DNA from: Syntrophomonas sp.
GTDB taxonomy: Bacteria; Bacillota; Syntrophomonadia; Syntrophomonadales; Syntrophomonadaceae
Assembly (NCBI GenBank): GCA_016841245.1
Contig: JAENZN010000010.1
Coordinates: forward strand, 1 to 64,000
Reading direction: 5' to 3'
Length of the DNA: 64,000 bases
In this document: piece after piece, positions 59,126-64,000 of the stretch
How positions within the stretch are numbered: position 1 is the stretch's first letter
Layout of the letters: each line of letters begins with the position of its first letter
Position numbers and translations under genes: made by a program
Notes under the pieces: generated by a model
What the model was told of the DNA's origin: nothing
Databases searched by the model: none
The model's input: only the letters and a program-made list of their open reading frames with translations

Positions 59126-60177
59126 GTAGGAGGGGGCGACTAACCTCCGTCCTCTCACACCACACGTAAGTACCGTTCGGTATACGGCTGTTCATGTGGA
59201 TTAACGAAGTATCTGATACGTTTCAAATAAGCTGACTAGCCCTTGGTCTCGACAGTAAGCGAGTCCGAGGGCTTTATTCGCCTGGGGAGTATTTGATAGC
59301 CTCCAATAGGCCTTCCTTGAACGGCTTATCAAACTAGCCCATTCTTGTGGAATTCCCAAAGCCACCAGGTTCCTGCGTTTGGTTTTAGGTTTCTTCCATT
59401 GTTTTAACAGACACATCCTGAGTCTTCTTCTAATCCATTCATCCAGAGATTTTAAAACGCTGGAAGTGTCTATTAATTGGAAGTCCCCTATCCAGTCTCG
59501 CAGATACTGCCTTAACCTTTCTATTCGGTCATCCATGCTGATTCCCCATCTGCGGCTGGTTATCTTTCGCATTTTATCTTTGAGCCGTCTTACGGTCTGG
59601 GGGGCCAGTCTGACCTTCGCTTCCTTCTGTGAAGTAAACGAAAATCCCAGGTATTTTCTCTTCCAGGGGCGATCTACCGCGCTCTTCTGCTGGTTGACTT
59701 TCAGCTTCAATTGTCCTTCTACAAATTTCCTTACACTTTCCATTGCTCTTTGCTCGGCTCTTTTTGCTCTTTACATAGATGTTTCCATCGTCCGCATAGC
59801 GGGTAAATTTATGGCCTTGTTTCTCCTGTTCTTTGTCCAGGTCATCCAGCATAATGTTTGCCAGTAGCGGACTTAATGGGCCTCCTTGGGGAGTTCCTTC
59901 TTCGCTTGCTACTTTGCAGCCATTTACCATAATTCCTGCTTCCAGATACCGGCGGATTTAGCTTGAGTACTCGTTTGTTTTTTACCTTAGCTTTGATTTG
60001 CAAGCTCATCCAACTGCTCTTAGCCTGATGTGGTTCCTGTTCGTCAGACCGGAGATTTGCCGCTGACTTCCTTCAGATTCTGCGTTACCGCAGACACCCT
60101 TGTCTTAAGCTAACGGCTACTGCTACCTTCGCCGTTCGGGACTTTCACCCTAGAGCCAGCGCCCATACCGGGCGCAC
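59126..60177 (-). mobile_element. Degenerate group II intron
   Basis: On the minus strand the element begins GTGCGCCCGG (60177). It contains domain I-type sequence (GGTGAAAGTCCCGAACGGCGAAGG, GCGGTAACGC, AATCTGAAGGAAG in separate stretches), the remains of an intron-encoded RT, a domain V-like hairpin near 59161-59194 with the AGC triad, domain VI, and the 3' end CCTAC (59126). Its length is ~1.05 kb versus about 2 kb for complete relatives. It is inserted immediately after the terminator of the M23 gene and 25 bp before trxB. Loss of RT domains makes autonomous movement impossible. Confidence 0.9.
59201..59968 (-). pseudogene. Truncated, frameshifted group II intron reverse transcriptase
   Basis: Frame 1 (about 59574-59968) keeps RT motifs RRYLEAGIMVNG, EEGTPQGGPLSPLLANIMLDDLD and HKFTRYADDGNIYVKS. 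After a frameshift near 59740 the other frame continues MESVRKFVEGQLKLKVNQQKSAVDRPWKRKYLGFSF, the maturase domain X and the end GYLxx-like RKAYWRLSN ... GLAYCRDQGLVSLFETYQILR. The first ~170 residues (RT0-RT4) are missing, and no endonuclease domain follows. Confidence 0.88.
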
Positions 60178-61641: not shown

Positions 61642-63024
61642 TTACATTTTGCCCGCCATTTGTTTTCTTAAATCCAGATAAATCGCACCTTCTATTCGCT
61701 TCTTATGCATCTCACAGCTCACCTGGTGAGGCTTCTTTAAGTCCATGCTCTGATAATAAGTATTGGCATGGCAGCCACCACCACAAAAATACCTGGCCCA
61801 GCACTCCTTGCATTCTTTGTCCTGGAGCTGATTGTTAGCAAAATCTTGTCTGATTTGATGGTTCTTGATCCCATGGAAGATATCCCCCATATAAAAAGCA
61901 AGGTCTCCCACAAATTGGTGACAGGGATAAATATCTCCCTCAGGAGTCACTACCAGATATTCAATCCCTGCCCCGCACCCGGTTACCCGTTTAGCCAGGC
62001 AGGCTCCTCTTTGCAAGTTAAGATTATAATGGAAGAACTCAATTTCTTTTCCCTGTATATAATTTTCTAGCAAGACCTCCGTAAGTCTTTCGTATTCGTC
62101 TAGAACACGCGGTAAATCCTGTTCCTGAATGGAGTAACCATTATCCGGTCCAACTGCTGGTTCCAGGGATATACAATCAAAGCCCAGCTCGATTAGATGT
62201 TCCAGATCTTTGGAAAAATCGATGTTTTTCTGGGTGAAGGTCCCCCGGGTAAAATAGCTGATGGGATGACGAGCCACCATCTTCTGAATACGAGGCACAA
62301 TCAGATCGTAGGTCCCTTCTCCGTTATTTAAAATACGGCAGCAGTCATTGGTGGATTTTCTTCCATCCAGAGATAAAATAACGCTAATATCATTTTCTAT
62401 GACCCAATCAATAATATTGTCTTCTAAAAGAACCGCATTGGTAGTGAGGGTGAAATTAAACCGCTTACCGGTTTCCTTTTCCCGCTCCCGGCAGAAGATA
62501 ACCAGGTCTTTCAGCATATCTGCCACCAGCAGAGGTTCGCCACCAAAAAAGTCTACCTCTAAGTTTTTTATCTGACCGCTATTTTCCAATAAAAAATCCA
62601 TAGCTTGCTTGGCTGTTTCCAGGGTCATTAAAGCTGGTTTCATTCCAAAATCACCCTGGGCAGCAAAACAGTATTCACATTTCATATTACAGGCATGCGC
62701 TACATTGAGGCATATAGCTTTAACTTTCATCGATAACAAATCAACCTTAGGAATTTCAGTTTCCGAGAACAAAGCCCCATGTTTTTGCAAGCGGCTCAAT
62801 TCCTCCAGCGCATCTGAGATATCATCGTACGAAAAAGACTTTTCGGTTTCGGCAACAGCCCTGTCAATGTATCCCTTATGTTCTATAATATTCTTAAAAA
62901 GTAAATTTGATAATCCATCCAGTAGATGAATAGCTCCGCTGTTAACATCCAGCAGAATATTCAAATCATCCCACGAGTATAAGTGTATATGGGCACTAAA
63001 ATCATAGTTCTTTAATGATTTCAT
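61642..63024 (-). CDS. SCIFF radical SAM maturase
   Basis: A 460-residue radical SAM/SPASM protein that forms Cys-to-alpha-carbon (Thr in the CteB case) thioether bonds on the SCIFF precursor. An N-terminal RiPP-recognition-like domain (1-95) leads to the [4Fe-4S] motif C112/C116/C119 (ACNMKCEYCF), FFGGEPLL, LTTNAVLL, and a SPASM region binding further clusters (GACLAKRVTGCGAG, YPCHQFVG, CKECWARYFCGGGCHAN, CEMHKKR). ATG 63024 with GGGAGGAAC is chosen; the open frame further upstream overlaps the precursor gene. An intervening terminator lies before it. Confidence 0.95.
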   Translation of the reverse strand: MKSLKNYDFSAHIHLYSWDDLNILLDVNSGAIHLLDGLSNLLFKNIIEHKGYIDRAVAETEKSFSYDDISDALEELSRLQKHGALFSETEIPKVDLLSMKVKAICLNVAHACNMKCEYCFAAQGDFGMKPALMTLETAKQAMDFLLENSGQIKNLEVDFFGGEPLLVADMLKDLVIFCREREKETGKRFNFTLTTNAVLLEDNIIDWVIENDISVILSLDGRKSTNDCCRILNNGEGTYDLIVPRIQKMVARHPISYFTRGTFTQKNIDFSKDLEHLIELGFDCISLEPAVGPDNGYSIQEQDLPRVLDEYERLTEVLLENYIQGKEIEFFHYNLNLQRGACLAKRVTGCGAGIEYLVVTPEGDIYPCHQFVGDLAFYMGDIFHGIKNHQIRQDFANNQLQDKECKECWARYFCGGGCHANTYYQSMDLKKPHQVSCEMHKKRIEGAIYLDLRKQMAGKM

Positions 63025-63058
63025 AAGGTTCCTCCCGGATAATATAGAAATTTCCACT

Positions 63059-63081
63059 AAAAAAAGGGGCACTAGCCCCTT
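63059..63081 (-). terminator. Attenuating terminator between SCIFF and its maturase
   Basis: On the minus strand GGGGC-TAGT-GCCCC followed by seven T, located 17 bp past the precursor stop and about 34 bp before the maturase ATG. It would make the peptide transcript more abundant than that of the enzyme. Confidence 0.88.
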
Positions 63082-63097
63082 ATCTCTTTTCTTAAAC

Positions 63098-63244
63098 TTA
63101 ATCCCGGTTTTTACACGATTGATTTCCAACCGTACAGGATGTCTTACAAGCAGATTGACATGATGTTGCACATTCCCGGCAATTAATATCCTGAACTGCC
63201 CTTTTCAGGTTAGGTTTTATCATAGTAATAATATGTTTACTCAT
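63098..63244 (-). CDS. scfA: SCIFF (ranthipeptide) precursor peptide
   Basis: A 48-residue peptide. The N-terminal leader-like part (MSKHIITMIKPNLKRAVQDIN) precedes six cysteines at 22, 25, 29, 33, 37 and 44 (CRECATSC, QSACKTSC, TVGNQSC), the defining pattern of Six Cysteines In Forty-Five residues. It ends KNRD. ATG 63244 has GAGGAGAAAG at good distance. Peptides of this kind are thioether-crosslinked by the downstream maturase and are nearly universal in Clostridia. Their role has been linked to quorum-type control in some species. Confidence 0.96.
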   Translation of the reverse strand: MSKHIITMIKPNLKRAVQDINCRECATSCQSACKTSCTVGNQSCKNRD

Positions 63245-63438
63245 TATTTCTTTCTCCTCTCATAACTCTCTGGATATATACCTTCCAGGACTACCCCGTT
63301 CCGGGGCAACTAATGTGCCTTCATTTTATTACGGCACAATTAATGACGCAATACCTTATTCGCGTTCGCTCACCTTTTTAGTTTGGAGCCCTTTAGAGCA
63401 CTACTGATTCCACATTCGCTGCGCTCACAAGTAAACAA
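63245..63438. other. Leader region of the SCIFF operon
   Basis: No coding feature. A CCCCG-TT-CGGGG-like hairpin (63294-63307) and GTGCC/GGCAC arms (63316-63338) could form a leader structure on the minus strand. No consensus promoter is certain. Confidence 0.35.
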
Positions 63439-63513
63439 TGGAGCGGGAAAAGGGGTTCGAACCCTCGACACCCGGCTTGGGAAGCCGGTGCTCTACCACT
63501 GAGCTACTCCCGC
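63439..63513 (-). tRNA. tRNA-Gly (CCC)
   Basis: A complete cloverleaf with encoded CCA: acceptor GCGGGAG/TTCCCGC-like, D-arm, anticodon stem CCGGC/GCCGG with loop TTCCCAA (anticodon CCC), and T-arm GGTTCGAACC. Last of three tRNA genes on this strand. Confidence 0.95.
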
Positions 63514-63535: not shown

Positions 63536-63611
63536 TGGCGAAGCCGATGGGATTTGAACCCACGGCCTCCGGCTTGACAGGCCGGCATGGTAACCGCTCC
63601 ACCACGGCTCC
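63536..63611 (-). tRNA. tRNA-Asp (GTC)
   Basis: A complete cloverleaf with encoded CCA. Anticodon stem CCGGC/GCCGG, loop CTGTCAA (anticodon GTC); T-arm GGGTTCAAATCCC; acceptor GGAGCCG/CGGCTTC with discriminator G. Confidence 0.95.
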
Positions 63612-63674: not shown

Positions 63675-63749
63675 TGGTGGGCGCAGCAGGTTTCGAACCT
63701 GCGACTTCCACCGTGTGAAGGTGGCACTCTCCCGCTGAGTTATGCGCCC
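63675..63749 (-). tRNA. tRNA-Val (CAC)
   Basis: A complete cloverleaf with encoded CCA. Acceptor GGGCGCA/TGCGCCC; anticodon stem CCACC/GGTGG, loop TTCACAC (anticodon CAC); T-arm CAGGTTCGAAACCTG. First of the three tRNAs, lying directly after purA. Confidence 0.95.
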
Positions 63750-63761
63750 ATATTAGTATGA

Positions 63762-64000
63762 TTATGCAAACAGGTCGCAGTTCACTATGGTCTGGCTTCT
63801 CTTGGCTCCCACAGCAATCAGGCACTGTTTTACTCCCGTAATCTCTTCAATTTTATTAAGATAAGCCCTGGCATTGGCTGGCAGATCATCGAATCTGGTG
63901 ATGCTGCTTATATCCTCCTGCCAGCCCGGCATCTCAATGTACTCAGGTACGCATTGTTCAAGTACACTTAATGTCTCAGGGAATTCATATAGTAATTTAT
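63762..64000 (-). CDS. purA: Adenylosuccinate synthetase, C-terminal part (cut by the window edge)
   Basis: Open on the minus strand from the window edge to a TAA at 63762-63764. The 79 residues read ...EYIEMPGWQEDISSITRFDDLPANARAYLNKIEEITGVKQCLIAVGAKRSQTIVNCDLFA. PGWxxDI, a DLPxNAxxYLxxIEExTG segment and VGxxRxQTI are the C-terminal motifs of PurA, which joins IMP and aspartate. The rest lies outside the window. Confidence 0.92.
   Translation of the reverse strand, partial: KLLYEFPETLSVLEQCVPEYIEMPGWQEDISSITRFDDLPANARAYLNKIEEITGVKQCLIAVGAKRSQTIVNCDLFA

Follow-up and report, generated by a model that had tools for sequence, protein, structure and literature searches.

The scfA-scfB locus

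Near one end of the window (the whole 64,000-nucleotide stretch of Syntrophomonas sp. DNA that was analysed), a gene for a SCIFF precursor peptide, scfA, lies behind three tRNA genes and ahead of its predicted maturase gene, scfB. The minus-strand order is tRNA-Val, tRNA-Asp, tRNA-Gly(CCC), scfA, a hairpin followed by seven T, and scfB, which lies 73 nt downstream of the scfA stop. The features are as follows.

63762-64000, minus strand: 3' end of purA (TIGR00184 match on the fragment), putative head of the transcription unit
63675-63749, minus strand: tRNA-Val(CAC) (tRNA scan), 12 nt past the purA stop
63536-63611, minus strand: tRNA-Asp(GTC) (tRNA scan)
63439-63513, minus strand: tRNA-Gly(CCC) (tRNA scan and Rfam tRNA), 194 nt before scfA
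63245-63438, minus strand: spacer of 194 nt from tRNA-Gly to scfA, containing a dispersed repeat at 63281-63352
63254-63259, minus strand: ribosome-binding site of scfA, GAGGAG, read from the sequence
63098-63244, minus strand: scfA, SCIFF precursor of 48 aa (TIGR03973 and PF13165 profile matches)
63059-63079, minus strand: predicted intrinsic terminator in the scfA-scfB gap (sequence, folding and comparison)
63030-63036, minus strand: ribosome-binding site of scfB, GGGAGGA, before the ATG at 63024
61642-63024, minus strand: scfB, radical SAM/SPASM maturase of 460 aa (TIGR03974 and CteB 5wgg matches)

The full purA gene is represented by ORF 863-2143 in locus L242. Elsewhere on the minus strand, window positions 59201-60094 hold a remnant group II intron (Rfam group-II-D1D4-3 at 59926-60094). 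Pieces of its reverse transcriptase/maturase are split over two overlapping frames, 59574-59930 and 59201-59743, and the intron therefore looks broken or truncated.

Identity of the precursor and the maturase

ScfA (MSKHIITMIKPNLKRAVQDINCRECATSCQSACKTSCTVGNQSCKNRD, 48 aa) scored 69.7 bits against NCBIfam TIGR03973 (cut-off 50) and 72.4 bits against Pfam PF13165 (cut-off 27). Its six cysteines, at positions 22, 25, 29, 33, 37 and 44 and thus all among the last 45 residues, follow the SCIFF spacing C-x2-C-x3-C-x3-C-x3-C-x6-C, which is found in 222 of 225 compared loci, and the SCIFF core CQSACKTSCTVGNQ is exact in 201 of the 225. ScfA had no match among solved structure chains at E 1. ScfB scored 535.7 bits against the SCIFF maturase model TIGR03974 (cut-off 425) and 25.0 bits against the SPASM family PF13186 (cut-off 21.5), and its translation contains the CxxxCxxC motif as CNMKCEYC. 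It aligns over residues 11-452, nearly its full length, with the solved maturase CteB (5wgg; 437.5 bits), and this full-length alignment is the one hint that ScfB may have an N-terminal leader-binding RRE. A genome-wide search returned one scfA and one scfB above cut-off in the source genome.

The original prediction of a complete pair, consisting of a 48-residue precursor with six cysteines and a radical SAM maturase, is thus borne out by scores above the cut-offs of TIGR03973, PF13165 and TIGR03974. Its remark that the gene is easily missed by automated annotation finds no support, since both peptide and enzyme exceed curated NCBIfam cut-offs. Judged by sequence, scfA and scfB are an ordinary SCIFF (ranthipeptide) pair, of a known kind for which NCBIfam and Pfam have models. 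Some of the natural SCIFF peptides encountered deviate from the six-cysteine pattern: L224 and L231 (family f21) read KTSLTVGNQ, with leucine in place of the fifth cysteine, and L229 reads CQSASKTSC.

Distribution and sample

SCIFF is widespread in the phylum, with a match in 316 of 398 sampled genomes. The closest named relatives of the window belong to Syntrophomonadaceae. For the comparison, 235 loci were gathered and 10 duplicates over the scfA region were removed, leaving 225; loci L001, L020 and L033-L036 had been dropped before. The phylum sample comprises loci from part of the 316 matching genomes, mostly one or two per family. As a consequence of dropped and duplicate rows, G016, G019, G425 and G430, which belong to the family of the window, are counted among the named contigs.

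Within the order, scfA was found in 53 of 63 genomes and scfB likewise in 53 of 63; eight genomes had neither gene and four were discordant. Apparent cases of one gene without the other were rejected. The contigs of G437 and G439 (scfA without scfB) end 58 and 52 nt past scfA, the scfB match in G028 starts at contig base 67 and lacks the N-terminus, and that in G420 starts at base 3. Two genomes from the genus of the window, G002 and G004, each 99% complete, lack both genes, which indicates that the scfA-scfB pair can be lost together.

Linkage of scfA to tRNA genes

The original prediction had not included the tRNA-Val, tRNA-Asp and tRNA-Gly genes directly upstream of scfA, and their presence changes the likely promoter of scfA. 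In the 400 nt upstream of scfA, 51 of 225 loci have a tRNA-Gly(CCC) gene on the same strand, at distances of 37 to 359 nt, and no locus of the 225 had an opposite-strand tRNA gene within 400 nt. Of 65 sampled families, 10 show the linkage, as do five named-contig loci, including Thermosyntropha lipolytica, Desulfofundulus thermobenzoicus, Desulfotomaculum copahuensis and a Thermincola MAG; it was absent from the compared loci from Lachnospiraceae records. In 17 of the 225 loci, from six sampled families and two contigs, purA precedes the tRNA genes.

A maturase tree of 104 rows, 27 of them linked, spreads the linked rows over several deep clades and requires at least 13 changes. This tree was built by a quick method, leaves out the row of the window and limits its family to 10 rows. 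An old linkage lost many times seems likelier than one in which the same isoacceptor was gained again and again. A terminator is predicted between the tRNA gene and scfA in 11 of the 51 linked loci, so that linkage need not imply co-transcription.

The spacer of the window contains a repeat of about 72 nt (63281-63352), of which the genome has ten other copies at 81-87% identity (E 3e-9 or better). The repeat forms strong predicted hairpins and belongs to no Rfam family. A structured cis-regulatory leader of scfA was considered and rejected: the 96-nt leader folds well (z -3.40), yet it is largely dispersed repeat, and the stretch has no Rfam match and is not shared with the more distant relatives compared. 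Two further matches of the spacer query (C9, query positions 4-84) resemble tRNA-tail repeats. Upstream of scfA in L156, L008 and L038, tRNA-Gly is followed by repeated units whose ends, GCTCCATTA, resemble the tRNA tail itself; GAGCGAAGCGAACG-like palindromes separate these units.

Promoter-like sites upstream of scfA

Promoter and terminator calls are consensus scans. A promoter-like site was defined as a match to a 12-position, sigma-A-like consensus at a threshold of 9 or 10 of 12. In Syntrophomonadaceae the scan extended from scfA to at most 200 nt upstream. A site matching 10-11 of 12, mostly TTTACA-18-TATAAT or TTGACT-18-TAGAAT, was present in every one of the 13 loci without the tRNA link, as compared with 1 of 28 linked loci at 10 or more of 12. 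The single exception, L014, has tRNA-Asp at 76 nt and a spacer without tRNA-Gly. Fisher's test on this contrast gave p 8e-10, a value that is uncorrected for kinship and too small because some unlinked loci share a genus; the relatedness of the loci makes such tests overstate independence. Most linked spacers are shorter than the 200 nt searched, and among linked loci with spacers of at least 150 nt, 0 of 10 reach 10 of 12. Genus g9 is mixed: L031 lacks the tRNA link and has a promoter-like site, and L164, L169, L171, L172 and L173 have the link and no such site. It seems from these scans that scfA exists in two states, either riding on a tRNA unit or standing apart with a promoter of its own.

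The window appears to be in the first state. Its 194-nt spacer contains no promoter-like site and no terminator called by the comparison detector between tRNA-Gly and scfA; a laxer terminator scan returned one weak hairpin (63365-63346) with an A+T tail and no T run. A promoter of a non-sigma-A type may nevertheless lie in this spacer. Further upstream, the minus strand has a single strong site, TTGACA-17-TAATAT, which precedes purA; matches of 9 of 12 inside the tRNA genes occur at chance frequency.

Among the alternatives, the one that survives best supposes a promoter dedicated to scfA within the 194-nt spacer, a terminator behind scfA that alone sets the peptide-to-enzyme ratio, and tRNA genes that are mere neighbours. 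Terminators also follow scfA in unlinked loci (L011, L015, L031), so that the ratio function would be independent of the tRNAs. Moreover, among all 51 linked loci a spacer site of at least 9 of 12 is present in 7 of the 11 with a spacer terminator versus 3 of the 40 without (Fisher p 2.7e-4). Against this, the spacer of the window is devoid of such a site, and the family-wide contrast between linked and unlinked loci runs the other way. We regard this explanation as unlikely, and favor transcription of scfA from the upstream purA-tRNA unit.

A conserved predicted terminator between scfA and scfB

The original prediction placed a terminator between the precursor and maturase genes, and the comparison supports it. 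The hairpin GGGGC-TAGT-GCCCC (63079-63066, minus strand) has a G+C stem of 5 bp, GGGGC/GCCCC, which extends to 7 bp with flanking A-T pairs, and a 4-nt loop; seven T follow at 63065-63059. Only 1 of 200 shuffles of the 61-nt stretch folded equally well (z -2.50), and a longer stretch of 78 nt gave a z of only -1.26. The comparative test of this predicted terminator is stronger than single-sequence folding. The detector called stems of 5 or more base pairs, including 4 G-C pairs, with a loop of 3-8 nt and 5 T in 8; it was applied to scfA-scfB gaps of at least 20 nt, with expectations taken from shuffles. Terminators were called in 37 of 39 Syntrophomonadaceae gaps (1.0 expected), in 44 of 85 gaps of the phylum sample (2.4 expected) and in 34 of 68 gaps of named contigs (1.7 expected). 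For comparison, the window has 14 other gaps of 20-160 nt between co-directional genes, and a terminator was called in 2 of these.

Outside the order, the detector was positive in about half of the loci, and 28 of 52 sampled families had at least one locus with a terminator in the gap. The sister family f2 had none in five loci and f3 had two in three. In the Syntrophomonadaceae alignment the stem is nearly always GGGGC/GCCCC, the loops vary, and 4 to 7 T follow the stem in nearly all rows. Covariation of the stem, sought in 39 loci, did not exceed that of shuffles; what is conserved is its sequence. By eye, a recurrent GCAGCG...CGCTGC hairpin with a weak T run was seen in the gap of Lachnospiraceae named-contig loci (L058, L081, L093, L104), and AACCTGATCCC...GGGATGAGGTT is common to the gap of the Desulfotomaculum-like loci L044, L115 and L198. 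In both sets the stem sequence itself appears conserved clade-wide.

How scfB is reached

In the interval separating the start codons of scfA and scfB, promoter-like sites of at least 10 of 12 were found in 1 of 39 Syntrophomonadaceae loci (1.5 expected), in 0 of 8 loci of f2 and f3, which make up the rest of the order, and in 2 of 85 loci of the phylum sample (3.1 expected). At the lower threshold of 9 of 12, the interval from terminator to scfB held a site in 2 of 37 Syntrophomonadaceae loci. With sites at chance level, read-through is the simplest route to scfB, and we consider that scfB is probably transcribed by polymerases passing the predicted terminator.

These counts bear on a second alternative, namely that the hairpin fully terminates a tRNA-scfA unit and scfB is driven by a promoter of its own. 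The perfect stem with its T7 tail and the distance of 73 nt between the genes would suit such an arrangement. However, sites in this interval are no more frequent than chance, and the stem ends within 50 nt of the scfB start in 23 of 37 family loci, leaving little room for a promoter plus a ribosome-binding site. Two separate units are therefore improbable. A role of the hairpin mainly as a 3' stabilizer or processing site of the scfA mRNA, with one transcript cut in two, is very improbable: in many loci outside the order the G+C hairpin is, by eye, followed by a T run too weak for the detector, but the 4 to 7 T behind the stem in the family are what termination requires.

With read-through as the preferred route, the terminator plausibly yields more scfA than scfB message. 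That it would produce many peptides per enzyme had been proposed originally, and the proposal gains plausibility from the conserved terminator, the lack of a visible promoter behind it and the precedent of seven nisin clusters in which terminators are predicted after the precursor genes (PMC9958725); the ratio itself is a reading of sequence. A conserved terminator without a downstream promoter offers a concrete, regulator-free model for setting the amounts of precursor and enzyme.

Proposed expression and function of the pair

From the gene identities and order, the conserved hairpin and the contrast in promoters, we infer co-transcription, partial termination, an unequal stoichiometry and the chemistry in the following way. 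Transcription of scfA would occur as the tail of a purA-tRNA-Val-tRNA-Asp-tRNA-Gly-scfA unit, without its own promoter, and the scfA mRNA would be released by processing of the tRNAs. The T7 hairpin after scfA would stop most RNA polymerases, and the few that pass it would supply the scfB mRNA, so that precursor would be abundant and enzyme scarce. ScfB would then form one or more Cys-Thr thioether links in the peptide; homology points to Cys33 as donor and Thr35 or Thr38 as partner. We assign this reading as a whole, with scfA as the last cistron of the purA-tRNA unit and a leaky terminator metering scfB, a probability of roughly 0.6.

The apparent tRNA coupling is the unexpected and new part, comprising the tRNA-operon position of the precursor gene and the on-or-off promoter pattern. 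Our search found no report of the scfA terminator or of the scfA-tRNA link, which is weak evidence from open-access literature only. A broader and more tentative proposal, to which we give somewhat less than even odds, is that, in several clostridial lineages of deep origin, the SCIFF precursor gene is the last cistron of a tRNA-Gly(CCC) operon and has been so since ancient times. Supply of the peptide would track tRNA transcription and growth rate, the leaky terminator would meter the maturase, and lineages losing the tRNA link would have gained a strong housekeeping promoter. If so, SCIFF would have a growth-linked housekeeping or signalling role and not an induced, antibiotic-like one. If tRNA transcription drives scfA, with strong sigma-A-like promoters doing so in loci that lack the tRNA, expression of the gene should follow growth, which would be a direct and testable hint at the role of SCIFF.

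Comparison with known systems

The closest known systems are CteA/CteB of Clostridium thermocellum and Tte1186a/Tte1186 of Caldanaerobacter, which have the same six-cysteine precursor and adjacent radical SAM/SPASM maturase. The locus described here differs from them in its host, a member of the Syntrophomonadaceae, and in the position of scfA behind tRNA-Gly(CCC). According to two reviews, Tte1186 and CteB link Cys32 to Thr37 or Thr34 (PMC8326336, PMC8172795). Thr35 and Thr38 of ScfA occupy the positions of CteA Thr34 and Thr37 relative to the donor cysteine, and aligning the CKTSCT core suggests Cys33 with Thr38 or Thr35 as the equivalents. Reviews also cite Chen et al. (2020) for a link of SCIFF to quorum sensing and sporulation in solventogenic clostridia (PMC8326336, PMC8102284). 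The original statement that modification and role are unknown is thus right for this organism and too broad for its homologues, for which Cys-Thr thioethers and the quorum-sensing/sporulation report exist.

In the nisA-nisB lantibiotic operons a terminator is likewise predicted directly after the precursor gene, for nisin A, Z, Q, P, U, E and O (PMC9958725). The peptide and enzymes are unrelated to those described here, however, and upstream transcription in the window seemingly comes from a tRNA unit. Nisin clusters are also much richer in genes, and their promoters are inducible.

The tRNA side of the arrangement also has counterparts. E. coli tyrT-tpr and thrU-tufB are tRNA operons with a protein gene at the 3' end, and a protein cistron behind tRNA genes in one unit is likewise predicted here. 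They differ from the present case in that the cistron here is a RiPP precursor and in that the linkage recurs over several deep families.
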